Source of the DNA: Beroe forskalii
Taxonomy: Eukaryota > Ctenophora > Nuda > Beroida > Beroidae
DNA: 64,000 bases
Direction: 5' to 3'
Assembly (NCBI GenBank): GCA_011033025.1
Contig: WFMF01000324.1
Coordinates: 141,310-205,309, forward strand
Shown: one piece after another, positions 588-47,400 of the stretch
Numbering within the stretch: the stretch's first letter is position 1
Layout of the letters: the number at the start of each line of letters is the position of its first letter
Program-made: the position numbers and the translations under genes
The notes under the pieces: model-generated
Told to the model about the DNA's origin: nothing
The model's input: only the letters and a program-made list of their open reading frames with translations
Databases searched by the model: none

Positions 588-1500
588 ATAGTTATTTGCA
601 CGGTATTATCCTAGTATCCTGCAGAGGAGTGGTACAATTGAAGTTATATACCTCTGCACGGTTAACCTAAATCCATAGATCCAGGCCAAGTACTCTTCGT
701 AATTCTACACTTTTGTAACCTTGCTCTCAGCATTGATTAACGACAATAATCTGCCACATTTTTATGAAAACAATTGATCTGGAATGTCCTGGACCGTTAT
801 TCATCGTGTGTCCATTCTCCATCTTGAGATGCACAAAAACTGGTTTCCATATGCATAGCAACGGCACCAAATTTCACCTCTTGGCCTTCGTTTTTCTTGA
901 TAATTTCTTGGCAAGCTCAAATTTAATTGAGTGCGCCTACACAGACAGACATTGTTCACCTGCCATCTCCAAACTATAATTAAGATAGTAAATATTGACC
1001 ATCTGTTAGTGAGTTAGAATTATTATATATCAAAAACTTATTAAAATCAGTTGTTGATGATGAATATAGTAGCTAAATATTATAAAGATCCAGTTTTCCA
1101 ATTATGTTGTAATTGAACTATCTACCTATCTGCTCACATCATTTCTTCATGTAGACATGCTGAGGTTGGGTAGAATCAAATGTTTGGCTAGTAATGCTGT
1201 AAAGAGCTCACTTTCTCTATCGTCTACTCCACAAGGATTTCTTGAAAAACATGAAAGGTGAGCGATATTACTCGAAATTGATTTACTTTTGAAAAGACCT
1301 ATTAAACCTTGAGATAAGACATTAGGTTAGGAGAATAACAATGTGCCTAGTTTTATTAATTCAGGTTGTGAAATTTTATCTGGAAATTGAAATGTAGATA
1401 AGTAGATAGAGAACAGAAGAGACAAAAAGTGAAACTACATGTTCTAGTATAGGTATAGGTAAGAAGAGCAAGTATCATTAAGTCATTAATCATTAAAATA
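588..1500. other. Intergenic, no gene seen
   Basis: AT-rich sequence with short chance frames only. I see no splice-flanked exon or recognisable protein here. Confidence 0.5.
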
Positions 1501-1533
1501 TTATTGTCATAGCTTTGTAAAGGGGCACTACCA

Positions 1534-2250
1534 AGATCAGGAGCTCCTCCACGAAACTTCCTTCTTTAAAGTGATCATAAAGTTAAGAACACTTTTCATA
1601 TTTAGGAACACAAGTTATGACTGTTCATGAAACTTTCCTTCTTAACCAATATTGCCCTTAAGATGGATTTTATTGTCCACGAAACCCTTCTTAAGTGTTG
1701 TAGGATGTGTCACGTGAATGAGCTAACGCAGATCACATGCATGGTGCACAAGCCAATCAGAGGTCAAGAAAGGATAATTGATTTTGTGTCATGCCAAGCA
1801 TAAGTTAATTAAGATAGTATTTCCTATCGCTGCTATGAAAACATTTCCAATAAACTCAATAATGTGGGGCAATATAATAATTATTTGATTGAAATTGAAT
1901 CCCATTCCTGAGTTAGGATCACGCTAAGAAGACGTTAAGAAGGATAAAACCGCTCTTAGTGATGCACCTAAATATGGTGAAGTTAAGAAGAAAGTTAAGT
2001 GCACTTAGTGAGTTAGGAAGACCCCAATTAAGCTCACGTTTGACTCACGCATCAAATATGGAGGGTAACGCAGACTTAAGAAGGGTTTATGAAAGGTCTT
2101 CTTAAATATTTAGGAAGTTCCTAAGAAGAAAAATATAAGTGCGAAATATCTTCTTAACTCAAGTTTCGTGAACAGAATATTTATGAGCACTCTTAAAATC
2201 GATCATAAGTATTTCTTAAGTACACATATCTCCGTTCGTGGAGGATCCCC
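1534..2250. mobile_element. Degenerate inverted-repeat element (non-autonomous DNA transposon remnant)
   Basis: The left end reads GGAGCTCCTCCACGAA and the right end (2233-2250) reads TTCGTGGAGGATCC. These are imperfect inverted copies followed on both sides by related motifs (GATCATAA, CTTAAGAA). The interior is rich in scattered AAGTTAAG/CTTCTTAA words in both orientations and has no coding capacity. I could not identify a superfamily or a clean target duplication. Confidence 0.45.
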
Positions 2251-2525: not shown

Positions 2526-5500
2526 CTAGAGGTGCTCAAGATTTGCAAAACATCGAATTAGCCAAACAATGAAAAATGGAACCCATGAAAGAACATCGGT
2601 CACAATGAGCGTGGTTATCTTTCTCTGTATCTTTCTATTCTTTGCTAAAGCAACTTTATTGTTCTGGCCAACCAATCCTGAACTCTCAGATGTTTTCATG
2701 TTAATGAACATATAACAGAGTGTTATGATTAAGACACATAGCATGTTCACTGAAATAACCACGATAGACATCCAGATTTGGGGGTTATCAGTAAAGATGA
2801 AGTAGTTGAATAAGCAGAATCCATTGCTGCCGAAAAATCCAATTTTATCTCCTACAACGTTTCCATTCACAAACATGCCTTTCACTAAGTTATTGATGGA
2901 ATTCCAGGAGAGTTTGATGTTCGATAGTCTACCATAATAGGTTTTAATTATCCTCATATGATGTTCTTTATCCAAACTTCCAACGAAGAGAGGGTTACTA
3001 TCATATTTTAACGATTCGAACAAAATATGAATTAAGATATGAAAATGTGGGAGAAAAAGCAACTAAACATGCCAAACTATATATTCCAATTATGCTTCCT
3101 AATAATGATATTTTATGTCTTTTATTTAGATTTTCTTGTGGCATATGCATTGATCTTACTCCCATGTGCCCGAAATAAACTCAATATGGTCATTGAATAG
3201 AGAGAAACCAAAGATCCTACTGTTGAAATTATTCCTAAAGCTGTGCACATGTAACTAGTGACCCATTCGAACTGAGTTTTACATGTACTTTTATTCAGAA
3301 ATTCATCAGATACAGCTACTAGAACCAAATAAACACCTTGTAGAAGGTCCCCTGTTGAAACTACAAGGACAAAGGCTTCATTAATTTTTGCAGTTGCTGT
3401 TTTGAGCGAGGAATAATTCATAAACCCTTTTATCATAACACTTATATTCAAAAATGTTGCCCAAACCCTAAAGAACACGCCAGAATGAATATACTTCTAT
3501 CTTTGAATATCTTAACTTGGTTGTCGCAGTCATGATTGCATTCATCACTATAATCTAGACAATCAAATATTCCATCACATTTCTTACTTTTAGCAATATA
3601 CTCGCTGGATGATAGACATCTGAAGTTATTGTTACAGTTATTTTCATCAGAGAAATCACCACAATCGTCATTCAAGTCACAGACCTTATCATATTCAACG
3701 CATAAACCATTTGTACACCCAAAAATGTTTTGCTGAAATTTTCCCCCGGAATTCCTTAAGACCACAGTTAATTTTCTATCTTCTGTGATTGTTAGAACAC
3801 GATTTGAATTGGCGTGGCATGAAGTGCGATTAATTGTTTGAAGTGGGCACGTCACTTCCTGACTACAAAGGCCTGTGCAGGCCAGATACAAATAAAGCTC
3901 CCCAAAAATATCAAAACAGTTCACTTGTCTCGCATATTGTGGGCTTAGAATTATGGAAGATGGAAGAACTCCGTAAATTGGAATCCTGCTTATTTGCATC
4001 ACCACACATGGCCCAATGATTTCAACGAGGCTCTCTAGTCCAAGATGACAATGGAATGTGCGTTTAATATTATTAAATTCATTTATTCTACTTGAAGTCG
4101 CATAATTCCATCTTGATATTTTGCATAAATGCTTATCACAATTTGTGAAATCTACACAAAGACTATCTTTTCGGAGGTATTTTCCAAAATTTGGACACTG
4201 CAGAAGGATTTGATTATTACAGGAAAGCCTTTCTTCATAAGAGAATTGTGCTTTGTGTCCAGTACCACAGACCCTAAACCATTTCATTGAATCTTCGTCT
4301 ATCCCATTGATACAATCCCGAACTCCATCCATGATCCATGAAGAGGGAAATGAAATGTTATTTAGTTTTCTGTAGGAAAACCTCCGCACACATCTTACCA
4401 AAGATGACGTCATGTCACCGCACACAGATGCTGTTTCGTCTGCATCAAAAGGACACTTCCTAGTTCCATCACACATTTGGTGTTTGTGAATAACGCAATC
4501 CTGACTTAACGTCGTGCACTTGGTATCAATTGCGTCATCACATAGTTTGAGACCTTTGCAAATGACATGTTTGGAAAGGGTAGTTGCATATCCATTCACT
4601 TCGCAGATAAGAGGACTTATAGCAGAGTCGGTGCAGTTCATTTGGTCCCTGTAATCACGGCACACTTGCGACATGGGGTGATTATCACGGGCAACCGAGC
4701 AATGGTTCTGAGGATGCAGTTTTCTTCTGCCATTGATAAGTGCCCAACTGAAGATGTAATTCCCAGATTCACATGTGTCCTTCGGATCACAGCCAATTTC
4801 ATCTGCCCGGTTTCTGCAATGTGAAATCCCATCACAAAGGTACTTAGGTTGTACGTACTCAAATCCATTGTTGGAGTTGCACATTCTTTTGAACGTGTTC
4901 TTCCTGCTTAGGACGCAGATTAAACCTGTGGTAAAATTACCATCGCAATGTGCTTCATCGTAACAGTTTTCACATTCACAAACCTTGTTGCACAGGGCGT
5001 TCTTTGGAACCTTTCCGTAGATGCTGTTAGGGCACGGGGCGCAGCTTGTTAGTGTTGTAGTTGAACACTGGTACTCATCCACTGCTGTTCCATCCACTTT
5101 ATTCAAACAGCTGTGTCTACCATCGCACCTACTGCCTTCCCCACTCCTTATGATATTATTCACGCCCGTGTAATTTATTTTATAGTGGGGGATTCAAAAA
5201 CAAACTCGAAGAGACATAGGATATCCCCGCAGACACCTTCTCCAGGATTTACAGCCATATTAGAACTGGTATAACTGCTAGCATTGCTGCAATCCCAGTG
5301 ACCACAGGACTGGTAGAAGGAAGGGTCGTCAGGGCAGAGGTGTGAAAAGCTCTGCTTTGTGCAGGTCTTCATTGTCGTGGTGTAGAAGTGATAGGAAAAT
5401 GGGCACTTGAAGTACCATTCACCATCATCAAGAAGACAGCGCTCCTTCACATAGCCCCTCACCAAAACGAAGTGACACTGTTTCACCCCCAACCGCGAGA

Positions 5501-10176: not shown

Positions 10177-10493
10177 TATTCAATTTTGTTCCATTGATTA
10201 ATGTATCTTGCATCCAATATTCCATGCATTGAATTGCTCATTGCAACAATGAATTTTCCTTGCTGATTTCATCTCAAAAAGAAATGGTCTGAAATCTGAA
10301 TTATATTTTTAATTTCAACTGTTTCAACTGCATTTTAATAATAAGAAATTATGAAAATGATTGTAATAGTACATTTTGTTTTAAACTTAACAACACTACT
10401 TATTACAATCAAATTTGAGGACCCCGAGCTCAATCCTTTGAACCGGACTCACTGTGGCATTGCTGCGTTTTCTTGTGAAATACCAAGAGTGCA
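10177..10493. other. Gap between TPC start and retroelement
   Basis: This stretch contains the TPC 5' region on minus and the untranslated leader of the retroelement on plus. No promoter motif is convincing. Confidence 0.4.
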
Positions 10494-13303
10494 ATGCCAC
10501 GGAGAGAAAAGTTTGAAGAGGAGGGGGAGGAGTCCTCAGTCCCATTACAGGATGACATGGCTGATGGCAGTAGGGACGAGGGCTCCTCCTCCCAGAAAGC
10601 AAAGACTGGTAGCACTACGCCGGGGACTGAAGACACGGACCACGAAGTTTCTTTCACCCGCAAGCCAGTCACAACAGTTTTCCATTCACCAACTCCTCCA
10701 CGACCACCTCCACGTAAGAAGACTGCTGGAAGACCCAGAAAGAGCAAGGTGATTACCAGCACACCTATCACGAACTTTGTGACTGAAGATGTTAACTGCC
10801 CTGTATGCAAGTGTGATGTGTCAGATGAGGTGAAGGGATTGATGTGTATTACATGTCAGACTTGGTTCCATGGATCATGTTTGTCGATATCAGACGAGGA
10901 GTACAACGACCTCAGCAGCTCAGAGAATTCATGGTGCTGTATGAGTTGTCTGGCTGTGAATGCTACTCAGTTGAAGTGGGGGACATTAAAGGGGGAGAAG
11001 GCAATACAGCAGGTCATTAAAGCGACATACATGGAGATCACGAAGTGGAAAAGAACTTGTTTACCCTACCCCGAGGGAAAGCAGGAGTTCATTTCATTAA
11101 TGAAGTAGCTCGCCTCATCCTCTTGTTCACTGACCAGACTGCGTGGAAAGATCTGTCATTGTCTATGGTTCATGTGTTCATCCCCCTGATGCTTCAGAAG
11201 CCTTCAATGAACTCTAAAGCCAAGACTAATGCCAAGTTCTTAGCACTGAGACTTGCTAAATGGAGTGAGGGGGATCTGCAGAGTCTCATGGACGAAGCCA
11301 GGGAAATCCAGGTGCGGTTATCTCAGGTAGCAAAGAAGAAGGAGACCAGCTGCCATGTTGCCTTCACAAGATTGATGTTGTTGGGCCAAGTTGGGAAAGC
11401 TGTGAAGTTGATAGACAGTAACAGTGATGTTAAGGGTGTTCATAAGCTGACTCGTCCTGTCAAGAAAGTCCTGGCGTGCAAACACCCTGATGCCAAACCA
11501 GCACCTCAGCAGTTGAAGATGGAGATAACGACCCCAGAACCCCAGCCTGTGATCTTCGAGGAAATTGATAGTCAGATGGTCTACAGAGTCGCCAAAAATG
11601 TGCATGGTTCCGGTGGGCCCACGCTCTTGGATGCAGATGGATGGAAACACATCCTGTGTTGCAAATCTTATGGAAAGGCATCTGAGAAGCTGTGCGAATC
11701 CATCGCTGAGCTTGCAAAGTACATCAGCACTAAAGAAGTCAACCCAACAGCCTTGGAAGAACTTCTGGCTTGTCGTCTTATCCCCCTGGACAAGGGCAAC
11801 GATAAGCGGGGAGGTATTGGAGTGAGACCAGTGGGTGTTGGTGAGGTACTTCGGCGAATTGTGGGCAAACTGGTCATCGGTGTCCTAAGGAACGACATCC
11901 AGCAGGCAGCAGGACCACTGCAGACTTGTGCGGGTCTGAAGGCGGGCATTGAGGCTTCCATCCACGCTACTCGGGAGCAGTGGGAGCTGCCAGCTACTCA
12001 GGGTGTATTACTGGTTGATGCGGACAATGCTTTCAACTCCATCAACAGAGAGCTGGCAGTTCACAATATCAGGGAGTTGTGCCCACCCTTCCATCGCTTC
12101 ATTGCTAACACTTATCAGCAACCCGCCATGCTTGTTGTTAATGACGGTCTGACGACGGAGTACATGGGATCCTATGAAGGCTGTACTCAGGGGGATGTTG
12201 CTGCTATGGCCTTTTACGCACTGGGAGTCAAGCCACTCATCACAGAGCTCTCATCTGCAGTTGATCCATCTGCCTGTAAGCAGATGTGGTATGCAGATGA
12301 CTCTACTGCTGCTGGGAGACTTAATGAAATCAAGAAGTGGTGGGACTTGGTGTGTGTTAAAGGTCCTCAGTATGGCTACTTCCCTAAGCCCTCAAAAACT
12401 GTTTTGATTGTGAAAGAAGACTGTCTCCAGTTGGCTAATCAAATCTTCAAGGACAGCGGTATTCAGGTCACTAGTGAAGGAGAGCGTCATCTCGGTGCGG
12501 TGCTTGGGACGGAGGCTTTCAGGAGGGGGTACGTCGAGGACAAGGTCGCAAAGTGGGTCAAGGACGTTGAACAGTTATCTGATATCGGAAAAGATGACCC
12601 GCAGGCAGCCTATGCGGCCTTCACAAAAGCGCTTTGTCACAGGTGGACATTTGTTCAGAGGACTATCCCAGGCATCTCTGAACTGTTTGGTCCACTGGAA
12701 AATGCCCTGCGACAGAGCTTCCTGCCGTCCATTGTTGGAAGGCAAGTTTCAGAAGTGGAGAGGAAACTGTTTACTCTTCCTGTCAGACTCGGGGGGCTTG
12801 GAATCTCAAACCCAGTTGAAGCTTCAGATATTGAGTTCCAGGCCTCAGTGAAAATCACGGACAACCTGAGAAAGCTAATATTTGATCAGCAGCAAACTCT
12901 TGATGGTTATCAGGCTGCGAGTGTGGCGGAAGTGACCAGGGATTGCTTGAAGGACAAGGAGGTGAGGATGATGAGGAAGATCTCTGAGATTGTATCAGAC
13001 TCTTCTGTTGGCAATCTGAAAAGGTCCATCACCTTAGCCCAAGAGAAGGGTGCCGGGGCGTGGTTAACTGTTCTCCCTATTGGTTCTCTCGGGTGGGTGC
13101 TGAACAAGGAGGAGTTTCGGGATGCACTCAGGCTGAGGTACGGCTGGCAGATCCCTAACATTCCAGCAGTTTGTGTTTGTGGCAAGAAGAATTCGGTAGA
13201 CCACACCTTAATTTGCAAAAATGGTGGCTACTTGATCTTCAGACACAACAAAGTTCGAGACACAAACGCTGCGTTTCTTAGGGAAGTCTGTCACGACGTT
13301 TAA
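10494..13303 (+). mobile_element. Retroelement: PHD finger plus reverse transcriptase, frameshifted
   Basis: Frame 1 (10494-11108, 204 aa) has a Pro/Lys-rich stretch with an AT-hook-like AGRPRK, then a Cys4-His-Cys3 PHD-type zinc finger at residues 102-152. Frame 2 (11045-13303) continues after a one-base frame change near 11045-11056 and encodes the reverse transcriptase. It shows LLVDADNAFNSINRE, the strand block SYEGCTQGDVAAMAFYAL and the catalytic MWYADD (about 12284-12301), followed by a GERHLGAVLG block and the thumb region PVRLGGLGIS. I recognise this RT type as an abundant unnamed family in cnidarian and other invertebrate genomes. I cannot place it in a LINE or LTR clade. The protein stops at 13303 inside the conserved HNKVRD...VCHDV region. 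Related sequence follows in other frames, so this copy is dead. Confidence 0.85.
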
Positions 13304-20445: not shown

Positions 20446-23400
20446 TCACACCCGAATGTTTGACCGGGCCTTCTCCAAAATCTCCTTCTTTATCTTGGGG
20501 TAGTTGGGGTGGTGGTGCAACACCTGGGATAAAGGGAGAAAATGTGTTACGTGGGTTAGAGAACGCCTTCTGTAATTTCTACAAAACCGCCATTTGTACG
20601 TACGTGATATAATGATTTAACAGTATATTCACGTATGTAAATGGCGCCGCGCAATCGGAAATTTCAGAATTATTCTCATTTCTAGAACTCGCGATGCGAT
20701 CGAATCCAAAGATAGTGGAGTTTTACTATTTTAGTAGATTTTTGGTACAAATAGAACAAATTAATAACTTACTTTGTGACAGACATCAATGGCGTCCACG
20801 AATCTCTTAGCTTTCAAATAGTTGAAGGCCAACTTGAACCCTGTCAAAGAGTGAAATGGTAGAGTGCTCAAGTGAGAATGTGGAACCATATGGATAGGGG
20901 TAAAAATGCATGAAATAGGTGAATGCAAATTCATTGAAATTTCATATTATGGCTTGAGGATTATACTTTGAGGATTGCTCTTAAACCAGAATAACTCAAG
21001 ACAACAAATTTTGAATTGCATCATCAAGGATTAATTCTACCTCACTCCCTGACTGTCCCACCATCACACATTACCTATAGTTGGGTTAGTGAAGTTGCTG
21101 TATTGCCAGGCCTTCTCGTAGTTATTAGCAGCGTCCTTGTAGCTAGCCTCCTTCTCATGCACGAAGCCGTGGTACTCCCACGCCTGGAGAAATTTCAAGG
21201 AAACTCAAGGAATTTCAAGGAATTTCAAGGAATTTCAAGGAATTTCAAGGAATTTTCAAATATAATTTGAAACAAACGCATTCAAATCATACACATTCTG
21301 GGTTAATGGGTGCTGAGCAGCTGATAATGTGAGGCTGATAAAAAATGAGCCCTGGATACCATGGTGGTTCAAATGAGAAAGTGTGAAGCAGGCCTCGTTG
21401 TGGGAGATGTAATGCTCACCTTGAAGCAGGCCTCGTTGTGGGAGATGTAATGCTCACCTTGAAGCAGGCCTCGTTGTGGGAGATGTACTGCTCACCTTGA
21501 AGCAGGCCTCGTTGTGGGAGATGTAATGCTCACCTTGAAGCAGGCCTCGTTGTGGGAGATGTAGTGCTCACCTTGAAGCAGGCCTCGTTGTGGGAGATGT
21601 AGTGCTCACCTTGAAGCAGGCCTCGTTGTGGGAGATGTAGTGCTCACCTTGAAGCAGGCCTCGTTGTGGGAGATGTGTAGTGCTCACCTTGAAGCAGGCC
21701 TCGTTGTGGGAGATGTAGTGCTCACCTTGAAGCAGGCCTCGTTGTGGGAGATGTAGTGCTCACCTTGAAGCAGGCCTCGTTGTGGGAGATGTAGTGCTCA
21801 CCTTGAAGCAGGCCTCGTTGTGGGAGATGTTGTGCTCACCTTGAAGCAGGCCTCGTTGTGGGAGATGTAGTGCTCACCTTGAAGCAGGCCTCGTTGTGGG
21901 AGATGTACTGCTCACCTTGAAGCAGGCCTCGTTGTGGGAGATGTAATGCTCACCTTGAAGCAGGCCTCGTTGTGGGAGATGTAATGCTCACCTTGAAGCA
22001 GGCCTCGTTGTGGGAGATGTAGTGCTCACCTTGAAGCAGGCCTCGTTGTGGGAGATGTAATGCTCACCTTGAAGCAGGCCTCGTTGTGGGAGATGTAGTG
22101 CCCACCTTGAAGCAGGCCTCGTTGTGGGAGATGTAATGCTCACCTTGAAGCAGGCCTCGTTGTGGGAGATGTACTGCTCACCTTGAAGCAGGCCTCGTTG
22201 TGGGAGATGTAGTGCTCACCTTGAAGCAGGCCTCGTTGTGGGAGATACTCACCTTGAAGCAGGCCTCGTTGTGGGAGATGTAACGCTCACCTTGAAGCAG
22301 GCCTCGTTGTGGGAGATGTAGTGCTCACCTTGAAGCAGGCCTCGTTGTGGGAGATGTAATGCTCACCTTGAAGCAGGCCTCGTTCATCATCAAAAGAGAG
22401 GCCGGACCCGGGGGTCCGCAAGAGGATAGTCCCGGAGTGGGACTGTGCCTACCTCTAGTCGCCGAGGCGACGGGGGGTGAGGGTGAAAGGTGATGGAGGT
22501 GGTGGAGGGTGAAATGAGGGTGTGGCTAGCGAGGGGAGGATACCTTTACCAATACAATACCAGATACTTCAGAGCTATCGGAGAGATGAGTAGATGCTAT
22601 GTCACCCCTGTATTGTCCGCCTCCTCCCTCTGTTCGCTGTAGTCTTTTGGTTTGGAGTGTGTAATTGATCAGTGCGTCCATACTGTTGTTGTCCATGATG
22701 TCGTTAATGGAGTCATAGTATGTCTCGAGTGTGTTGCCTCTGATTCTCATAAAAGCAGGGCATTGTCCAATGAAGTGTGCCACTGTCTCCTCAGTGTCAG
22801 TGCAGTAAGGGCAGTTTGGTGTGTCAGCGCGTGTTATTCTGTGCAAGTGTTTGTTCAGTCCTATGTGTCCTGTAATAATGGAGATAGCAGTTCGGTACCG
22901 GATACGGTTGCCAGTGTTGTTGTTAAGTGTGCGAAAAACCTTCTTCTGATGGTTACCTATGATCATGTCAGTGTGAGCATGTTTGTTGGTGATCCACCTG
23001 TCGTGGCTGAGGTTGGTTACCTTGGTATTGATTAAGTGTTTGATGAATGAAATGGGGACAAGGCTGGTGACGGGGTTACCATCTTTGGTGCCAGCCTTGG
23101 CAAGCTGGTCTGCTTTCTCGTTTCCCCAGTGTCCGATGTGGGCTTTTATCCATCTGACTTGGACTGTGTTGTCATGAGCTAGGAGGTGAGTGACTTGTGA
23201 CAGTCTGCAACTGATTTGTTCCTGTGGATTCTGTTGGAAAGAGCTTGGAGTGCCGATAGGCTGTCGCTCCAGAAGGTGATAAGCTTGTTGTTGTAGTGTT
23301 TAAGTCTGTCAGCAGCATGCATAAGTGCTGCTATTTCGGCCTGAAAGACCGTGCAGTGATCTTTCATCTTGAAGTGGTACTCGGTTGTGTTCTCGTTGTG

Positions 23401-26400
23401 GGGGTCCTTGATGACGTAGCCGCCGCCCACCCCGTGGTCTGTTTTAGAGCCATCTGTGTAGCAGCAAATGTTGTTGACGCTGATAAGCTTGATATCTTTG
23501 TCCAGGTTGTTGGTGTAGTTGTCAGAGTGAGCGTCTTGGGGGTATGTGATGTTATAGTTGCGGTCAAGAATAAGATGGGGTTTAATAGTGTCCCATTGGT
23601 TGTGCCCTGGGACTTTGAGCTCAGAAATTAGGTTGTTCGATATGGTGCTATGAGCTTTGATGATTCCTTTGCCGGTGGGGGGCTGTTTCTAGGGTCCAAT
23701 CTCCGTACCCCATGAGCCTGACTGCTCCCTTGGCAGCTTCACCTTTGAGGTAGTCGGTAATGTGAGGTATACTAGTGAGATAGTTAAGAGTGTTGTAAGG
23801 TGTAGAAGGTAGGGCTCAGTCATATACCTGAGTGAGAGTCCTTGAACTCTTTCGAGTTTCTTGGTATTGGATTTGTTGTCAGTTGCCTTGATCCAGACAA
23901 CAGCGCTGTATGCCAGCGCCGGTCTAACAATGGAGGTGTAAATCCACTTGCATACTTTAGGAGTAAGTCCCCATGTGGGGCCTATGGCTCGCTTGCATTG
24001 GAAGATAGTCCCTATGCATTTTTGGTAATGTTGTCGATGTGTGAGTTAAAGTTGAGTTTGTTGTCCAGTGTTACTCCAAGAAGCTTTGCTTCTTTACTGA
24101 GCTCAATAATTGAGCCCATTACTTTGATTGGGCGTAAGGTCCACTTTCTGTTCCATGTGAACATGACTAGTTTGGTTTTGAGAGCGCTGATGTTGAGTCC
24201 CTTCGACTCACACCATGTCTCTATAGTCTTGATGGTGGTCTGTGTTCTCTGCCAGATGACATCGAGGTCATCCCCTTCTGCTAGTGACATTAAGTCATCA
24301 GCAAAGCCTGCAGATATCCTGGAATGTGCTTTGCTGTGTACTGAAGGAGGTCATCCAGTACAAGATTCCAGAGGAAGGGTGAGAGAATGCCTCCTTGGGG
24401 GCAGCCTCTTTTAATTCTGATCCTTCTTGAGGAGTTTTTGAGTGAAATTGTAACATTTCTGTTAGTGACCATTCCCTTGATCCAGCCGGCTGTGCTTGGG
24501 TCTAGGGGGACTTGTCGATGGCTTCCGAGATAGCTTTGAAGGACACATTGTCGAAGGCCCCTTCGATGTCAAGGAAGGTGCCTAGAACATATCCCTTGTT
24601 GGCTATTCTCTTCTCGATCTTGTGGATGACTTTGGAGAGCTGTTTCAGTTGAGGTGCCTTTCTTGAAGCCAAACTGCTTTTTGCTAAGTTTGTCCTCCAT
24701 GCCGAGGTCGTGCTGCATATGCCAAAGGATTATCTTTTCCTGTAGCTTGAGGAGAGTGGGTGAGAGTGTAATAGTGCGGAAAGCGTTGGGTTTGTTATAG
24801 TCAGTCTTTCCAGGTTTGGGGATGAAGATGCCGTTGGATTCGGTCCAAGGTTTGGGAACATGCTGCATTTCATGACTTTTTGATCATGATTGCCTTCACA
24901 GCGATGTTGATGTGCTTCCACGCTTGTTGAATTGTGATTGGCTGAAGTGTGTCTGGTCCAGCTGCTTTGAGGGGGTCGAAGGACATTATTGCTTCCTTCA
25001 TTCTTGTGTCACTGTAAATATTGTCTAGAAGATGTGTGTCTGGGATAGTATGGTCTGTATGAGGATTAGAGGTAGCATCATCTTTGAAATGACTTCTCTC
25101 CATAACCTCAGTGTCTCTTCCGGTGTGGTCGTGAGGGTGCCATCTGATTTGTAGACAGATTCTAGCTTCTCTGTCTTGTCATTGCAATTTTTGAGAATTT
25201 TGTTCATTCTGGCCGACTCCTTGACTGTCTCAGTGTCGGCACAGAATTTCCTCCATTCGTCCTGTTTTGTTTTGGTGTGAAGTTTGTTGTAAGTTCTGTT
25301 GCTCTGTCTGAGGGATTCCCAGTGTTCTTGGGTTTTACTGGAACGTGCAGTCATGAGTTTCCGCTTCATGTCGCGGTGTGCCTGTTCCACCTCAGCGGTC
25401 AGCCAGGGTGGTTTTTTGATGGTGCTCGCGATGTGTGTAATTGGGCATGCTTTATTGAAAGCCTTAATTAGATGCTCGTTGAGTTTGGTTGCAGCAGTGT
25501 CCAAGTCTTTGTTTGAGTTAATGTCCTGGATGGGAGTGGGGTTATTTGTCAGGAAGGTATCAAATACATCCCAGTCTGTGTTTTTGGTAAGCCGGACTTG
25601 CCGAGGCTTGTTGAGTCTCTTCGAAGTTATGTTGAAAGTAATGTAGTGATGATCGGAATTAGAGTAGCTAAGATCAACCTTCCAATTCTCGACCTGGTCG
25701 TTACCAGTGTTGTTAGTGATGGTGAGGTCAATAACAGATTCATGGCCTCTGGAGTTAAGAAAAGTTGGGGTAGTGCCCTTATTGACCCAGTTTAGGCCGA
25801 GGCGCAGGCCTCGTTGTGGGAGATGTAGTGCTCACCTTGAAGCAGGCCTCGTTGTGGGAGATGTAGTGCTCACCTTGAAGCAGGCCTCGTTGTGAGAGAT
25901 GTACTGCTCACCTTGAAGCAGGCCTCGTTGTGGGAGATGTAATGCTCACCTTGAAGCAGGCCTCGTTGTGGGAGATGTAGTGCTTACCTTGAAGCAGGCC
26001 TCGTTGTGGGAGATGTACTGCTCACCTTGAAGCAGGCCTCGTTGTGGGAGATGTAATGCTCACCTTGAAGCAGGCCTCGTTGTGGGAGATGTAATGCTCA
26101 CCTTGAAGCAGGCCTCGTTGTGGGAGATGTAGTGCTCACCTTGAAGCAGGCCTCGTTGTGGGAGATGTAATGCTCACCTTGAAGCAGGCCTCGTTGTGGG
26201 AGATGCTCACCTTGAAGCAGGCCTCGTTGTGGGATATGCACTTCTTGATGAGATCCTGGGCCATGTCGTACTTGCTATTCATGATGTAGATGTCTGCCAG
26301 CAGCAGCCACGCCTTCTCGAACTCTTCTGCATCTGCGAGGGGAACATTGGTATGTGGGGATCAACTCATTCATGGGTGTGTGGGGGGAGGCAAATACTCT

Positions 26401-29400
26401 GCGTCTACGAGGGGGACATGGATGAAGAATGTAGATTGTATTTGTAGGAGGCGAATACTGTGGTGTCTCGAGACATTTTCAGCCACGACGTAATACATGT
26501 CGATCCCGTCGTGCATGGGTATTCTTTGTTGTGAAAGCGCAAAAATGTGCGCTTTACAATGTTTTGAATCGAATTCAAAAGAAAACTCGCGTCATAAAAA
26601 GTACCCAGGCGCGGCGTTAACATTATATACGCCGTGTATGAAAAGGCCCTGTAATAGGACAATAGGCTATGAATATGGGACATGAATAATGAATACGGGA
26701 ATATAGGATATGAAAATAATAGGCATAACGGGATGAATTACTGGCATACGCCATGGTTTGTAAATTATCACTTGGCACTCACTTCAAATGGAAACATGGC
26801 TTAAAATATCGTTTCCGATGCTAGGATAAAAAGCAAAATTATCAAGTGCAGTTGAGAGTTTCGTTGTGGGAAAAAGTGAGACATTTTCATGACTTTTTTA
26901 AAATTTAGTTTCACTTATTTGAAGTACGCTTCATAGAAAATAGAGCGCACTTCACGCAGACAGGTAATTGGATAATTCCACTTCGGAAGAGGCCTTGTAC
27001 AAGTACATTATCAGGTGGTGAAGTAATGATAATTGCAGCCGATAACTAATCCAACTAAGGAACTTGGGGCGAACGCGTTTAGAAGCGATTATTGAGTGTA
27101 TTTCGGAGAATTCCCTGAACTCCAAATTTAGAATATAAGGAGGCACTTAGAGGTTTAATTGTGCACATGTCATACTAACACACTGCCTCTCCTCATTTAG
27201 CTCGTCTTATTTAGCTTGTTTTATTTGAGTATTGCTCGAGCTTTTACTACTGTTGATTATACTTTACAGGATTTCCTAGGCGATTATGGGCCAATTATCT
27301 GCAAAAAATTTCCATGGCTGTTTTTAAACGTAAAGTAATTAGCGGCAAGCCCATGTCACAAACTTGCTAAACTTGCTAAACTAGCTAAATACACCTGTCA
27401 CTTACCAATGGGATTCCACTGCATCTTTGCGATCCGTTTAAGTTGGTTTCTCGCTTTCGGCACTTGTTTGAGAATCATGAAGGCGATTGCAGAACCTAGG
27501 AGGGCGGGGACATGGTCGCTCTGCGTGGCTACCACCTCCATGAAGCTGTCCAGGGCTCGTTCCACGTTCTGCTTGCTCTGAGTAGCGATAAGACAGTAGT
27601 TCTCCAGAATCCGGACCTTCATCGCGCTCTGAGCGTTAGTAGGTCGCAGGTCATGCAGTAGCTTCTCCGCTGCTTTCACTGACAGCGCATCGTTCTCTTT
27701 GCGTTCCACCCCCAGACGTTCCGGCTCCGAGTTAGCGAACACTTCCCCACCCAGCGTCTCATTGTCGGGGTTCAGACAGATCCGGATCATGGCCAGCACG
27801 GCCTTCTCACCCCAACTACTGTCCTTTCTAGCCAAGTTAAAGTGCTTGAGAGCGATGTGGGAGTTACCACTGAACCAGGCGTGCAGTCCCTTGCAGTAAT
27901 TAAATCCGGGAGAAAGAGGGATTTTAGCTGAGGACCGCTCGGCCATGTCCAGGAATTTAGCACTTTCCTCGCCCTTCCCAGCACGCCGCATCAAGTCAAT
28001 GAGGGCAGCCAGGGCAGTGAAGTTATCAGGTCGCTTCTTCAGCAGCTGCTGGAAGTGGTTGATTGCTTCGCTGTGCTGGTTTCGTTGGAATAAAACGTTG
28101 GCAAGGAGAACAATAGCACTCTCATTCTGAGGATTTCTCTGGAGTAGAGAGGTGCAGATAGTCTGGCACTCATCCAACTCTCCTATGGAGAGGTTTAGGT
28201 TAGCTAGAGCTAGGGAGGCTGCTGCGTTCTCGGAGTCCTGTGCCAGAGCGTCCCGATAGCACTGGATAGCTCGCTCGAAGTCCCTCGCATCACAGAAGTG
28301 TTCAGCTATCTGCATGCTGAGTTTAGAGAAGTGCTTCTTGTATTCTTCTATCTTATCGGAGTTTTCAATCGATGCTCGTTTAACAACTTTGTCCATTCCC
28401 TCTCCAGCTTTCTTCAGAAGATCCAAAGCATCAGCTAACTGACCCCTCTTCTGAGCCAGAGTCCCCAGCAGCTCATAGTACTTTGACTCCTCAATCAAAC
28501 CGGCAAAGTCCTTGTTATCTGCCAAACCCTCCAGCGCGCCCTTCAAGATTCTCTCAGCTTTTTCAAACTGTTTCAGTTTTATCAACAAATCCGCTAGATC
28601 ATACCTCAGTTCGGCAAACGTAGGCGTCTGCTTCAGAGCAGTTTCATAGTAGTTAATTGCCTTGTTGTAATTATGTGTCTTGACAAATGCTCTCCCGATT
28701 TTACTGGCTAGCTTTGCATCTCGAGGGTTCTTCTTGAGAGCTGACTCGTACACGCTGATGGCTTTGTCAGGCATTAGGATCTCCATGTAGGCATCCCCCA
28801 GCAGGATAACGTTCTCAGGGGCAGGGTTCAGATCTACCAGGTCCTGGAAACAACTGATGTACATCTTCTTGTCTTTGCGATGCTTGAAGTAGATGTTAGC
28901 CAACTTCTTCCTGGCTTGACTGTAGTGCGGTTTATCAGGCTCTATCTTCTTCAAGATAACGAGGGCTGCCTCGTAATCGCCTCGTGCCAGAGAAAGGTCA
29001 GCATTAGCTATTGCTATCCTGATCTCGTTAGGAGTGTTCTGGAACTCGTTGATAGCATCCTGCATCACCTTGGCAGCCTCGTGGTTCATGTCCAGTTTCT
29101 TGTTGACATCTATCAGCTCCAAGTACACTGCTATCTTGTCAGTACTGTCTGCCCCCTCCTTGCTAGACAGTTTGAGAGCTTGTTTCAGAGTCTTAAGACA
29201 AGCGTCTAGATCCCCCCGTTCCTTCTGCACACACGCCTGAACGTAGTGGTAGACAGGCGACTCCATCAGCTCGAAGTTGTAGCTCAGTCCGATCTCCAGA
29301 GACTGGAGAGCTAGTCGACTGTTACCCTCCATCAGAGCTATACGGGCCATTAGCAGGTGGGCTTCTCCGTAGGACACGTCCCGAGTAAGACATTCCTGAC

Positions 29401-32400
29401 ATAGCGTCTTAGCTCCTTCTACTTGCCCTGAAGGTGGTAGAGGTTATACAGGGTTATGTGTGGGAATACTGGGTCAAAGAGAACCGTGAAAACTCAGAGA
29501 GATTCACCGACTTTATACTTTTATAGCTAAGGATGTCAAAAGATAAGCCGCCAGTTAAATGTTAATTCAGACCATTCTAAATTCATTTTCATCAAAGCTC
29601 TATGCAATAAAATTTTTATAAAGCCATGATAAAGGTCTGCAAGGTATTACCTGATAAGTATTTGACTTTAGCGAACAAGTAAACGGCAGGTAGTAATCCA
29701 GGTGCCCCAGCAATAAGAGGGTTCAGTATGTTAGAACATGCTGTCAGGGCAGATGACTGGGCCTGTCCTTGGGCCTGGGGCTGAAATAACATCGGGTTTA
29801 GATGAGGTTTACCTTCGTGTTAGGAAAACATACCTACTGTAATAAGTAGCGATTGAAATCTAGATGATATCATGAAGCAACAGTAGGATTAGTGAGGTAG
29901 GAATGATTCCTGGTAGAAAATGACGTCATCATGTCTTACCTCAGATGGGGCGTATGCCAGATAGAGTTGCACAATCTGGAGCAAGAAATCCGGGTCCATC
30001 TTAATGAAATACTCGCACCCTGGAACCTCACCCTGCAAGAATATGAAGGTTTCAATAGTAGTCAAATTGAGTTGCAGTAGTCACTAGTCAATCATCAGCT
30101 TCATTCAGTCGTTTAGTCAAATGACTTTCAGATCAAAGGTGAAGGGAACAGAACGTTTAAACGTATCACGATATTTGGGTTCAAATGCTAAAGATCTTGA
30201 GCAGTGTACGCATTGACTTTTGCGATGCTTTTCCCTACAACGCATGACATTGGGCGTATAATAGTGTTCATGCCTTTTACCACGGCATAGGCGGCCATTA
30301 GACATTAACTCTGCCCCATACTGCACGTGAATCCCTGGGCGTCGCCAAATGCATCACATTATGTCACGTCCCAGCCGGGAAAGCACTCGATATATCACGC
30401 GCTTTTACTCTAAGATCAATAACACCCCTCAGACACTCAGACCATTGCTCAGGTTTTCTTACAGTTTCTTCGAAAATAGTATAAGTATGCGATATCAAGC
30501 GCTTTACTTGATCTACAACAGCACAGAATACGTGTTTTGCTATTGAGATCTGAGATCTGTCGTGTCTATAAATTGTCAGATCTGCTCAAGGGGCGGTGTC
30601 AACTGTCACCGGCTCTACCTTCCCAAATAGGCTTCATGAAAGTCCAAAATTTTAGGCTTTTCAATATTCACTGTGGCTGAATCTTATAACTCCCTAAAAG
30701 TTTAGCAATGGCCGCGTTTAATTTCAATGCGTGTAGCTCTTTATGTACCATGTTGCTCATATTCTGTTACATTTTCTGCGAATATGAGAATGATTTGCAT
30801 AAAGTTACCTACAAATTGGTGTGCCGTATTAAGCTGGGTATCCATGGCTCTTGAGCCTCGTTTGTATCAGAACACGGGGAACATTTATCTTGGGTCAATT
30901 GTCGAGCATTTCGCTCACTTGCAGTGGTTGTTGGTGTTTTTATTATGAATTTAGTTAAAGCGGCAGATATAACGGCCTGATTGAAACAGTTAAACAAGCG
31001 AGAATATACGATAAGGTCCCTCCCATGCCCTGTGCACCCATGTCCCGCACACGAACCTCAAGTTCAGTAGATCTGATCTGAATTGCATCGTCGAGGTGTT
31101 GCACAACGTCCGTTTCACTGGCCCCCTGCTTGACGCCCACTTTAGCCTTGAGGAACATGAGTTCTGCAGGACGGCTTGTGGTGGCTGATATCTCGTAGAG
31201 GAAGTCCAGCTGGGAGGCGGCGTCCTCAACGGCGTCCGCGGACAGCAAACATCGCGTCCCTCCTGAAAGTGGCAGAGGCTGCTTATTAGTCAGTTAGCGT
31301 TAATCAAGAGACAACTAACATGGCGACCACCTTGGAAAAGAGAAACCTTTTAGTAAAGATGCGATACTATCAGTCCGCGCTGTACATCACTTTACTGATT
31401 AACTTTGTCACATACCCATTACCCAAACACCTTAAAATAGATAAAACTTTGGAGTGTCGCCTGTCGGATGTTTGAAATTCCTACGGAGAAGTTCATTAGT
31501 TGTTCGCAACTTCTTTCTAATAAGATATAGTCATTGTTAAGAGGACTTAAGAGCTAGAGTACACCCTTAGTCGTCCTTGGCAGCAGTGTATTCTGTGGCA
31601 TCTTGTGATCTGAAGTTCGCCGAAAAACCTTTTGTCCACGGTCTTAGTATTTTAGTACAAATTTAAGTCTGTGATTCTTCCGCATTAGTACGTGTGTGTT
31701 TATTAACGTCCACTAGTTCTGCTCTAACTTAGTCTGCTTAGTGTCCTAATTATCACGATTATCAAGGTCAATATATTTAGCATACGATATGACTGACGCA
31801 TATATTATGCTCATACCACTTTATCTAATGCAGCAGGATTAATCTCATGCAGAGGTTGTAGTGATATCGCGGAGATCCAACCCTACTGCTGCTGCAGCCA
31901 CGAATAAGCATATCTGCTGCAAGGAATTTAGCTTATCTGCAGGACGTGCACAGTGATACCGAGACTAACTGACTAGAGCAACCGGCCTTTAGACATCGTG
32001 TCTGAAGAGATGGACTAGAGAGATTAGCTGACCGACGTTTTATTTTTAATTATTTCGGCTAACTGAGTAAAGTATGATTAATTTAATTTCTTTCGTTTTT
32101 CGGCTGTCGACCGTTTAAAATCGTTTGATAATCTGATAACAATTCAATTTCCACATTATCTATTTCAATGTTTTTTATATTTATATTTTATTTTTATGGC
32201 CATATCTTTCATCACAATATTAGCAATCTTCTTTTTTAGATTGTCGTTGTCAATAGAAGGCCAATCATGACAAACTTATCAGCATATTATGAGTGAAGAC
32301 TTGAAGAGGGTCGACATGGTTTTTGTTTTTTTTTCCAAAAACTACATAGTAACTAACAGCAAAAACAAAAAAAAGTTGGCCTCTCCTCTATGAAGTCCCG

Positions 32401-41400: not shown

Positions 41401-44400
41401 TTTGTTATATCTTCCACATTCTAAACAAAGCCAGGCAGATCTGTGTTAACTGACTGAAATTTAAATAGCTTGCCATCCAAAGGTAGGAGGTTTAACGTAA
41501 GAAATTCACCATTTGAAGCTGTGATGATAGAACCACTGTAAGCAATCTACCTAGTACGTTACTTCTTATTGCAGTGCACGGCACTAAAGGTTACACGGTA
41601 TGTGGACCATGGGATCACACTCTCTCTTTCTCGAGAACTTCGTAAGGAGGGTCTCCTGAATTACCTCGTACAGTAACCCTACTAATGCGAGGGGCTGCTC
41701 TAAGGCCCCTGTTCTCTTGGAGCAGCGCCAATCCTCGGCAGTAAGAGGCACTGCATACATTAAAGTGAACCTACATGTAAATCATCTTCAGAAGAGATTA
41801 TCAGTGTAGTTGCACGTGTTCATTCATTATGGAATGTATAATGACAGCCAATTTCAGCAGTCCGTTTGAATTATCCACCGTTATTATTGAGCATAATATG
41901 ATTAATGATTGCATAACTTACAGTGATTTTATTGTGCTATTGTGACGTTGCTTGATTGAGTTGACCGTTTTGTTTTGATGGCGGTTTGTCTAAACATAGT
42001 CCACCGTTTTAATAAATACCCGAGATCTTTGTCAACCTGGCTGTTGCAAATCAGCGAGGAAAAGATGACATAGAATCTGCAAAAAAAACCTGTGTTTAAT
42101 TCTAAACCCAAGTCCATCTAAGCACAAGTGCCTAATGATGACGGGAATCGGGAAGGTCCCATGACCTATTGGAGATGATCAGAGCATAATAGCTGTTGAA
42201 AAAGGGAGAATACCATGGCCAATATCATAAGAGAAGTTACCTATAACTGTAAAGATGAGGAAGACGAAGAAAGAGATGGTAAGAAATGCAATCAGCACTT
42301 GTACCGAGCACAAAGCAGTGAGCAAGAAGCACCGAGCAGTGAGCAAAAAAGCACAAAGCAGTGAGCAAAGAAATTTGCAGCAAGCACAAAGGACCGAGCA
42401 GTGAGTAGAGAGTAATATTCTATGATGAGTAATGAGCAAAGAGAGTTGAGTAACGAGCAGTGAGCCATGACATGTGTATAGCCTGTCTTGAGTTAGGAAG
42501 GAATTAGAAAAGACTAAAAGAATGGCGATGTGATACCATAAAAAGAAGTACTTCCTGAAAGGATTGAAAATGGAGATGCGGGGTCTCGAACCCCGGACCT
42601 TGCGCATGCAAAGCGCACGCTCTACCGCTGAGCTACATCCCCCGTGATCCTCTTAACTTTATACCATTAAAATTAACTGTACACTATTCTGAGATGAGCA
42701 AGAGAGAGTAGTTATGAGCACCAAAAAGTTAAGACTTTTTTGTGATGAGTGGAGAGCATGGGGTACTCGTCTAATATGGTCTCAGGAGCACAAGGCATGA
42801 AGCGTATCGATGAAATTGACAAATGGAGCAAATTACATTGGATGCAGTATATATTTTAAATGCATGAGGATGCAATAACTCAATAATTTGAGGAGCATCA
42901 AGCAACGCATAGAGAAGCACCGGTGTTATGTACTGTAAATGTACAAATGTAAACCGCAGCATCTGCATTGTTCATAAAGAATATTGACTAGTTAATAGCT
43001 ATGTTTTGAGTATTCAGATTGATGGTAGATAGTTTCCTTGGAATTCAATATTATTCAAACAGGAAATTTCATTTATGAAACATCTTACAGCATTCAATTA
43101 AATTTTATTCTTAAATATAATAAGCATTTTGAGATCAAAGCATATGAGATTATGGTATATCGATTTCTCATTCATAATTCGGCAGTATCTTAAGAAAGCT
43201 TTTCGGCCCGAAGCAACATGTCAATAGGAAAAGCATTTTCTTCACAGCACATAAGCACATAGGACAATGGATAGATAGCATCATATTTTCTGTTTCAGCA
43301 GTGGTTAATTGAATCATGAATGTTGTTGGCAACCACTCAACACAATCACTAGAGCAACACATCATACTCATGATTGAAGTACATAATGAAAATCAGATAT
43401 TTAATTACTAATGAGCCCTTCAACCATTTTCATTACTTTACTCAAATATCAATCATCTTAAGAAGCTCCGAGAGAGCAGTTCTGTCTTATGGATCTATGT
43501 ATGTACATTATATAAAAAGGTGGAATATGTAGCATGATAATTTACCTTATTATTACATGTGAAAAGGTTGGGATCCAAGTTTTTATAAACGATAAATGTT
43601 GGGCATGATGGAACCAACAGCCTCCACTAATAATTTCAGGGCTTGATCCAGTGAGTGCGCCCTGATGCAGTGCGAGTACAGATCGATTATACGCTTAATC
43701 ATTCTTAGTTCTTACACCCAAATCGCAGAAAAACATTTCCAAGCGAGTTGATTTTATATACTTTATACAAACGGATAACGGGGTCCAAATAATAATCATA
43801 ATAATCGTCAAGAAATCTATAGTTTTATACTTTCTACAGTCGGTGTGTGCTTGATATAGCTGATTTTCTCTCGTGCCATAATACCCCGAGTACATGTGCA
43901 TTGTGCAGTTTAGCAGCATCTCTCCTCTTCTTCCACCGCGCTTAAAAACACCAAAAAGCATAATCACTGTGAATAATTACAATCGAGTGCTGGCAGATGC
44001 CTCGTTAATGGCAGGCGGCGGTCAATTACTGGAGGTATTCCCAACACGGCATCTCTGGGAATGTTCAGCACTGACACTGACTATGAAACGTTTATAGGAT
44101 CCGGAGTATTGAGTAATTTTGTTTCCAAATCTCCTGGTCACCTCCCGTGAAGACTATACTTGTGTACTCGGAACGAATGAGCGAGGAATTGGAGCACTAC
44201 ACGATCCAGCAGACCGTTTTATCAGAAAAACAACGAAGTTCCCGCAATTTTTTGCTTTACTTGAACGAATGGACATTTGTCATTGGTTGCCCAATGCCCA
44301 CATGGTTTACCAGGCAATTGAAAGTCTTTATTAATATATTCTAAGAGCATGAAATTCTGGGAAAGCCTTCCATTTGCCCATTGCACCGGCGTGCTATCGG

Positions 44401-47400
44401 CATATCAAGCACAGCACTTGAGTCTAGTTAAAAAGCATACCCCGTTTTTTAGGTTGCTACTCAGCTTACCTGATCATGCTATACGTTTTAACAATTTATT
44501 ATACCACGTTGTGCTTATTAACTATATACCTATATTGTGTTCATTGAACGCCTAGTGCTTATTGATTGGTGATTTCTGTTTAGTGTATTCATCCAAATCG
44601 TTTACAGTCGTAATACTAATCAAAAGCACAAGAAAGAATTCTGTGGAACTGGAAAATGTAACGAGTCTAGTAACAAGACTAGACTCGAGTCTGGTAGCAA
44701 ATCTATACATGAGATTTTACAGGAGCAATTATTTGGCAAAGTACTGACCCCTCCCCCTCTGTGTACTGACATGTATTGATCCTTCCCCTCTACCCCCTGT
44801 ATAGGTGTTGGAAATGAAACGTATCGATCCCTCCCCCTCAGTGTAGGAGATAGAAATGATCCAACTCTTAATATCCCACCCCCTCTCCTCTTATCTGACC
44901 CCTCCCCCTGTAGGTATTGGAAATGATCCAACTCTTACTGACCCCTCCCCTCAACCCCTGTGTAGGTATTGGAAATGATCCAGCCCTTACTAATTACTTA
45001 CCCCTCCCCCTTTATACCTGTGTAAGTGTTTGAAGTGAACCAACTCTTACTGATCCCTCCCCCTCTATCCCCTGTGTAGGTGTTGGAAATGATCCAACTC
45101 TAACTGACCCCTCCCCCTCTACCCCTGTGTAGGTGTTGGAAATGATCCAACTTTTACTGATCCCTCCCCCTCTCCCCCCTGTGTAGGTGTGTAGATATTG
45201 GAAATGATCCAACTCTTACTGATCCCTCCCCCTCTACCCCTTTTTCAGCTGTTGAAAATGATCCAACTTTTACTGATCCCTCCCCCTCTATCCCCTGTGT
45301 AGGTGATGGAAATGATCCAACTTTTACTAATCCCTCCCTCTCTACCCCCTGTATAGGTGTTGGAAATTATCCAACTCTTACTGATCCCTCCCCCTCTACC
45401 CCCTGTCTGTAGGTGTTGGAAATGATCCAACTCTTACTGACCCCTCTCCCTCTACCCTTATCTAGGTGTTGGAAATGATCCAACTTTTACTGATTCCTCC
45501 CCCTCTACCCCTGTGTAGGTGTTGGAAATGATCCAACTCTTACTGATCCCCCCTCTACCCCCTGTTTAGGTGTTGGAAATGAAACGTACTGACCCCTCCC
45601 CCTCTACCCCCTGTGTAGGTGTTGGAAATGATCCAATTCTTACTGACCCCTCCCCTTTATTCCTGTCTAGGTGTTGGAAATGATCCTACTCTTACTGACC
45701 CCTCCCCCTCTATCCCCTGTGTAGGTGTTGGAAGTTATCCAACTCTTACTGATCCCTCTCGCTTTATCCCTGTATAAGTGTTGGAAATGATCCAACCTTT
45801 ACTGATCCCTCCCCTCCTTCCCCTTATCTAGGTGCTGGAAATGATCCAACTCTTACTAATCCCTCCCCTTCTACCCTTATCTAGGTGTTGGAAATAACCC
45901 AACTCTTCCTAACCCCTCCCCCTCTATCCCCCGTGTAGGTGTTGGAAATGATCTGACGATGCTGCTCCTACGACGGCACTCCGTCGTGTCCCAGGACCGG
46001 TCCCGGGAGAAAAGGGATGCCATCTTCAGACGACAAAGTGTCATCTCCAGCAACGACCTTAAAACCCTCAAAACATCCCAGAATATCATCGTGATCAACG
46101 TACGGGGAACGACCTACGAGGTATACCGGTGAGATCGAATGAGATATAATGTAGCTTGCCCCCTGCCAAACATGAGCTGACAGAACTGCTTTGAGTATGC
46201 CCAGATCAATTTTGGAACAAAAATCTGACCGAATTGCCTGTATATGAACTGAGCATGATAATCAGTACACTATTCTCTTACCCTCTCTTCACCTCCTAAT
46301 ATCAAGCTCTTGAACTCAGGTGTTCCAAAGTACCTTGAAGCGTTACAAAGACACTCTCCTCGGGTCGGACGAAATAGATGATTTCTACGACATGGACAGC
46401 GGCGAGTACATCATCGACACGGACCCCCAAATGTTCTACACCATCCTACACTTCTATCAGACCAAGGGGCACCTCTACTGCCCCCCGAGCATCGCAGAAG
46501 ACAGATTCATGGAGGAGGTTAGGCGTTTTAGCTTACCCACAGGGTCATTTATTTACTCTTAAACTTGCGCGCTGATTGGTCGATTTTATGACGATTTAGT
46601 GATCCTATGGGTAAGCTAATACACCGCTATGGGTAAACTAATATACTGCCTAAATTATAGTACGACGCATTCCTCGGAAAACATTTTCTGTATATCGAGT
46701 ACCATTCTTTATCAAAATCTCATACCAATTATCATGGCCATTGACTCATTATTCCGTAATTTCCCATCGCAGATCAAGTTTTTTCGTCTCACCAAGTACT
46801 TCTTGAAGTTAAGTGCCGTTCCTGGCACTGAAGAAGAAGAGCACGTTATCCCCAAGAAAACCAATAGAGTCTGGTAAGTTAATCATAACTTTTTGATAAT
46901 AATCTGTTATATGTCAGGTTTTGGGAGTGTAAAAAGCTGCAAATTGGTCTATTTTTGCAGCGTTTCTCCAGATAAATTTGTAAGAATTAATGTCTCGCAG
47001 CTGGAAAGCACGGCAATTTCAGCACACAGCTATGACGTTTGCACTATAATTAACGAGGAGAAATGGCACAACCTAATGTCTACCGTCTTTAGCCTTATAC
47101 CGGAGAAGAACCTGCTTAAGTACTTATTAAATTCATCGCAACCGGAAATAAGTATTTCTCCAAGGAACTTTTTAGATAATTTTACATGGTATTCATGTAC
47201 GTTTAAGCCGCTGTTTTTCGAAAACATTTTAAATTTGCCGGGCATTTATCCACGTGATGCCGTGATGGAAGGTAAATATCAAGCGAGACCAAGCCAAGAT
47301 GTGGTTCCACGCTAAATTTTAGTATGATCTATTGTGATTGGCTTGAATTAATTAAGAGATGCTTCAGGATTTAATAATTATTTGACTATTTTATAGTCCA

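Follow-up and report, generated by a model that had tools for sequence, protein, structure and literature searches.

A coding exon of the TTC21B/IFT139 gene of the ctenophore Beroe forskalii ends in a minisatellite built from copies of its own 5' splice site. It lies on the minus strand of contig WFMF01000324.1, in a stretch of 64,000 nucleotides (the window). The unit spans the exon/intron boundary, and the array adjoins the exon end and runs on into the intron. The reading favored here, with a probability of about 0.73, is that this is a neutral boundary minisatellite resembling the "mirages" described in amphioxus, in which the exon-proximal donor would be used and the others would mostly be decoys.

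Tandem Repeats Finder (TRF) reports 38-bp arrays at 21384-22384 (26.4 copies) and 25804-26238 (11.6 copies), with 95-96% matches between units. There are two blocks because the sequence between them, 22385-25803, is foreign. The features of the region, all on the minus strand, are as follows (a slash marks a splice junction):

26211..26332: TTC21B/IFT139 coding exon (exon 13 of an original prediction made from the sequence alone), 122 nt, 3' splice site TTCCCCTCGCAG/ATG, ending AAG/GTGAGC
26209..26210: GT of the exon-proximal 5' splice site of intron 13, probably productive in view of an ungapped exon join
26178..26210: first repeat step, 33 nt, in frame, open, ending at donor 2
25804..26238: exon-proximal array block, 11 donors including the exon-proximal one
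22385..25803: non-long-terminal-repeat (non-LTR) retrotransposon remnant, 3,419 nt, sense to the gene, frames broken and endonuclease start missing
21384..22384: exon-distal array block, 26 donors and a final donor-less copy
21191..21255: 10-bp array (CCTTGAAATT), a few nt upstream of the intron 13 3' splice site
21075..21183: next TTC21B exon (exon 14 of the original prediction), 109 nt

Counted unit by unit on the minus strand, 38 copies lie between 21384 and 26238. Each unit of 38 nt consists of 27 exon-derived nt, ATCTCCCACAACGAGGCCTGCTTCAAG, and 11 intron-derived nt that mostly read GTGAGCAYTAC. Copy 1 is the real coding exon end (26237-26211), and the copied part starts at about 26238. 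Copies 2-37 are 36 further donor-bearing copies, one of which (copy 12) is cut by the retrotransposon, and copy 38, the last, ends at CTTCA before its donor is reached. With up to two mismatches allowed, the window contains a 16-mer from the unit 38 times (37 exact, one with a single mismatch), whereas 100 shuffles gave a mean of 0.01. When a 76-nt stretch of the array was compared with the 216-Mb genome, at least 19 matches were found, every one at the TTC21B locus. The edge copies are unlike the inner ones, with ATA for ATC and the 33-nt step at one end and the broken copy at the other, a pattern that, judged by eye, is as in concerted evolution with excluded edges.

The original prediction had the gene, the exon end, the direction of growth and the donor copies right, as the Pfam matches, the structural alignment and the lists of units and donors bear out, and its figure of about 37 tandem 38-bp units agrees with 38 copies of which 37 carry a donor. 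It placed the boundary within the unit, as found here, but divided the unit into 28 exon and ten intron nt, and it began a real array at 26248, about ten nt too far out. The array is not continuous, and the prediction made no mention of the retrotransposon; the in-frame first step and a second array at 44.7-45.95 kb also escaped it.

The identity of the gene rests on Pfam TT21 ARM domains, found above their cut-offs in the order PF25062, PF25060, PF25058, PF25068, PF25064 and PF25063; the N-terminal domain lies at 50926-51408 and the main exon at 27398-29443, both on the minus strand. PF25063, the C-terminal TTC21 ARM domain, is spread over four consecutive pieces (profile positions 1-88, 88-130, 130-167 and 166-190), of which exon 13 supplies 88-130 and exon 14 supplies 130-167. 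Searched across the genome, this profile finds the four pieces, ordered and all open, only at the TTC21B locus, a search that also gave matches in six of 14 prokaryote control genomes, two of them over the cut-off. TTC21B looks single-copy and intact on this basis, with the reservation that one domain search could miss a diverged paralogue. Since the gene is found once, with its pieces ordered and open, correct splicing presumably occurs. Joined at ACFK/AWEY, the two exons align without a gap to residues 1191-1268 of the TTC21B protein in PDB entry 8fgw (E = 1.6e-31), which we take to be human, and the same join is also ungapped against the IFT139 protein of PDB entry 8bda, presumably from Chlamydomonas. 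Because the join is ungapped against these solved proteins, the exon-proximal donor is almost certainly the productive one.

The donors themselves give the spliceosome little to choose by. The junction TTCAAG/GT is present in 37 of the 38 copies, and 34 of these donors read AAG/GTGAGC; the remaining three are GTAAGC, GTGAGT and GTGGGC, one each, so that the "dozens of identical candidate donors" of the original prediction have three exceptions. The duplex energy with the 5' end of U1 is -9.6 kcal/mol for the 34 and -9.5, -10.2 and -8.8 kcal/mol for the three variants. U1 complementarity provided no discriminator between copies across the 37 donors, and no MAG/GTRAG site was found in intron 13 outside the array.

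Donor 2 would add 33 nt in frame, that is, 11 extra residues without a stop, and donor 3 would add 71 nt and shift the frame, which would then run to a stop in the final codon of exon 14. Donors 4-37 (34 of the 37) would all run into one common stop inside the array, at the 65th codon of the stretch read, which lies 34 nt upstream of the junction for donor 4 and 72 nt or more upstream for donors 5-37. The exon is predicted to measure 122, 155, 193 ... 497 nt with donors 1-11, and at least 3,966 nt with the donors past the retrotransposon. Steps of 38 nt followed by an early stop, as originally proposed, describe the unit and donors 4-37 well, but not the 33-nt first step, the open frame of donor 2 or the late stop of donor 3.

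In the favored reading, a tandem duplication spanning the 5' splice site would have been followed by minisatellite growth. Copies of the exon part in the exon's own intron would be nearly harmless provided that the original donor stayed in use, so the array could expand, homogenize and accommodate even a retrotransposon. The spliceosome would take the exon-proximal donor (26210) because this donor is the first to be transcribed and, paired with the 3' splice site upstream, delimits an exon of the normal length, 122 nt. The other 36 donors would mostly be decoys, leading to an 11-residue insertion (donor 2), a frameshift (donor 3) or a premature stop (donors 4-37). The array would then be a by-product of a minisatellite-rich genome rather than a dedicated device. 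In support of this stand the position of the array against the exon end, the conserved ungapped join, the near-equal U1 energies, an array built on the same principle at a 3' splice site in the window, and similar arrays elsewhere, where three of the seven places found on one contig look like boundary arrays.

The closest known counterparts are in amphioxus. Excerpts of the reports on mirages (PMC3087553; PMC3902484) describe them as tandem duplications, similar to minisatellites, that cover an exon/intron boundary at the 5' or the 3' end of the intron, in the genes for Adh3, the globins BflGb6 and BflGb9, troponin C and PGBD5. Their units measure 10-160 bp, many carry AG/GT signals, and the edge copies are excluded from homogenization; the same excerpts (PMC3087553; PMC3902484) suggest from the Adh3 and globin data that mirages leave regular splicing undisturbed. 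The TTC21B unit likewise spans the exon/intron boundary of a coding gene, whose exon is identified by homology; at 38 nt it falls within the reported range. It carries splice signals in nearly every copy, and its inner copies are near-identical while its edges differ, as judged by eye. The array thus appears to share the mirage-defining features compared here. It differs in its host, which is a ctenophore and not a lancelet, and in its size: the BflGb6 mirage has three and six units in its two haplotypes, according to the excerpts (PMC3087553; PMC3902484), whereas the TTC21B array has 37 donor-bearing copies and is split by a retrotransposon.

A second comparison is with human genes in segmental duplications, for which an excerpt (PMC2812944) reports that tandem repeats at exon-intron boundaries go along with changes in splicing and with new introns. 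Those repeats have units of about 30 bp and about four copies on average, and repeat-retaining transcripts also occur for 66% of such intron modifications (PMC2812944, same excerpt). They too are minisatellites at an exon-intron boundary, but the human repeats are few in copy and backed by transcripts, whereas TTC21B has its 37 donor copies in an existing intron and is known from its sequence. Position within an existing intron also sets the array apart from a model of intron gain by tandem duplication of AG/GT-containing segments, reportedly put forward by Rogers in 1989 and by Gao and Lynch in 2009, although the duplicated TTC21B segment does hold an AG/GT. No ctenophore case of splice-boundary minisatellites was recognized in the open-access literature, surveyed mostly by listing.

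Two observations weigh against a neutral array of decoys. One is the human repeats, which do alter splicing in the excerpt available (PMC2812944). The other is the near-invariance of the exon part compared with the intron part, which a purely neutral array would not predict. Leaving out copy 1 (the true exon), copy 12 (cut) and copy 38 (broken end), the exon-derived part of the 35 intact inner copies has one substitution in 945 nt (35 x 27), whereas the intron-derived part of 36 copies has five in 356 nt even with position 8 left out. Position 8 itself is C in 17 copies, T in 13 and G in five. In length, the intron part varies by the 33-nt first step, a single shortening of 5 nt and a single insertion of 2 nt. 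The difference in substitutions has a Fisher p = 0.007, for a test picked after the data were seen and on copies that share ancestry; counted as events, 5 to 10 against one, p ranges from 0.009 to 3e-5, with the same post hoc limits. The variation in the intron part could simply reflect mutation where units join.

The first alternative is that some array donors are in fact used. Donor 2 would then yield an isoform lengthened in frame by 11 residues between two TPR helices, and donors 4-37 would yield stop-containing transcripts that lower TTC21B output. Donor 2 equals donor 1 in U1 energy, is only 33 nt away and opens into a readable frame, and the stop of donors 5-37, at least 72 nt upstream of the junction, is far enough for decay under the usual 50-nt rule. 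The altered splicing of the human duplicated genes (PMC2812944, in part) points the same way. However, the 11-residue insert is absent from the aligned relatives, and the amphioxus cases reportedly splice regularly (PMC3087553; PMC3902484, excerpts). Use of these donors appears rather unlikely but not negligible.

A bolder extension would have the spliceosome read splice-site minisatellites by position at many genes, always at the exon-proximal copy, with the near-invariant exon part and the in-frame 33-nt step kept by selection. If so, the likeliest mis-splice would cost only 11 residues, and the copies would buffer exon-like sequence. This is improbable on present evidence.

The retrotransposon that splits the array bears on its age and on its reality. 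Pieces of an endonuclease, a reverse transcriptase and an RNase H lie in several minus-strand frames: Exo_endo_phos_2 scores 28.6 bits (cut-off 27.4; profile positions 65-116 of 117) and RNase_H 31.3 bits (cut-off 25.8), and RVT_1, a single broken piece, scores 25.9 bits, below its cut-off of 29.6. The insert is flanked by a 12-bp repeat, GCAGGCCTCGTT, at 22373-22384 and 25804-25815, which fits a target-site duplication, with the caveat that a neighboring array copy could mimic it. As the insert sits inside one array copy, the array is older than the insertion. Elsewhere in the window, 10479-13303 on the plus strand contains long open frames of 209 and 760 residues that look like a retroelement.

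That the repeat number, or the array itself, is an assembly artefact is very unlikely. Tandem arrays are often mis-assembled, and the BflGb6 mirage was "aberrantly assembled" in the amphioxus draft, according to the excerpt (PMC3087553), but the TTC21B copies hold distinct variants in a non-repeating order, and a retrotransposon with a 12-bp flanking repeat inside one copy needs a pre-existing array. The copy number is taken from one assembly, and its exact value is uncertain. Hardly credible is the idea that the AG/GT units serve the 5-kb intron as ratchet points in recursive splicing: TTCAAG/GT joins an acceptor to a donor in 37 of 38 copies, but the pyrimidine tract before each AG (GCCTGCTTC) is short, and nothing else found supports the idea, at which no test was aimed.

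The TTC21B array is not unique, since the window contains a 3' splice-site array as well and look-alikes occur at other loci. The array in the window precedes a Kv-like gene:

44740..45953 (about), plus strand: 3' splice-site array, about 54 bp per unit, 22 sites
45939..46120, plus strand: Kv-like exon (limits inferred), no Pfam match of its own

The sites resemble TGTGTAG/GTGTTGGAAATGATC; 20 of the 22 end in AG, and 18 have a TACTRAY within about 40 nt upstream. The last site would be the 3' splice site of the Kv-like exon, whose end reads as the beginning of a Kv T1 domain. Downstream, the following exon matches BTB_2 and 47412-48233 matches Ion_trans. In the frame of this exon the first ATG is found at 45959; the frame stays open over another 33 codons upstream of it, which leaves the start codon uncertain. 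Should the array lie before the start codon, use of earlier acceptors would do no more than extend the untranslated region. The array may follow the same rule as that of TTC21B, applied to the other end of an exon. Its units are more diverged (82% matches, compared with 95-96% in TTC21B) and diverge in both parts, so the invariance of the TTC21B exon part is not general. The Kv channel gene as a whole (45939-48233, plus strand) appears to be nested in TTC21B on the opposite strand.

To look for similar arrays across the genome, a donor pattern (AGGTRAG three times, with gaps of 15-45 nt) was compared with the same pattern read backwards, a rough control whose word recurs in one dispersed repeat sequence. 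The donor pattern gave 6,848 matches and the control 4,461, with large arrays counted many times. On contig C1, for which the list appears complete, there are seven distinct donor-pattern places and 11 control places, and these contig C1 places, set against the rough control, give no evidence that donor words are enriched among minisatellites. Of the seven donor-pattern places, three resemble boundary arrays, a fourth is doubtful and the other three are apparently something else:

L030, C1: 5' site that looks like a boundary array; M1 aminopeptidase homology, PDB E = 1.1e-7
L038, C1:1753545, positions 1436-1626, plus strand: 5' site with an open frame and splice signals; no PDB or Pfam match
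L037, C1: 3' site that looks like a boundary array; no PDB or Pfam match
L031/L036, C1: doubtful, only about 4 exon nt copied

Peptidase_M1_N reaches 23.3 bits at L030, under its Pfam cut-off of 25.8. L016 is intronic and therefore no boundary array as far as seen; L029 was rejected for lack of a visible exon, and the 30-bp array of L039 is not a boundary array as far as seen. At the L039/L042 locus, a further 50-bp array ends a cullin-2-like exon (a weak match, E = 0.011). Recurrence of boundary arrays in this genome is likely. The exon-proximal donor at L038, GTTAGT (-6.2 kcal/mol), is weaker against U1 than the three GTAAGT copies downstream of it (-10.1 kcal/mol), which makes this locus a test of position against donor strength. 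Further tandem repeats occupy L013-L015 (30 kb).

The TTC21B locus brings together 37 donors barely separated by U1 pairing, near-fixed steps and a conserved protein as the readout, and together with the 3' splice-site array it would let exon definition and first-made-first-used rules be tested directly in vivo. With Beroe as a host, the boundary minisatellites of lancelets and of human duplicated genes would also be found in a lineage near the animal root. Genomes rich in minisatellites may generally carry them, and new isoforms or introns may arise from them.

Among ctenophores, an excerpt on Hormiphora (PMC8527503) puts tandem repeats at 13% of the genome and describes nested intronic genes as common, in keeping with the features of this window. 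The Beroe ovata assembly is given as 91.6 Mb in the part of the source available (PMC11184263), and the present genome of 216 Mb is more than double that. Two assembled haplotypes could explain the difference, yet the TTC21B domain is found at one place only.

A tRNA gene at 42571-42642 on the minus strand is the sole Rfam match above the gathering score in the window. The mitochondrial contig (C1134) measures 13,339 bp with 17.5% GC, and ARAGORN, run with the bacterial code, found no tRNAs in it. Published Beroe forskalii mitogenomes have 17.3% GC and are without conserved tRNAs, according to an excerpt (PMC6991124). In the mitochondrial COX1, five of seven AGR codons align with an arginine of a PDB COX1 and two do not, and TGA occurs within the frame. 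The contig also contains a repeat of about 260 bp, 90% identical, at 4273-4529 and 7532-7794 of L047.

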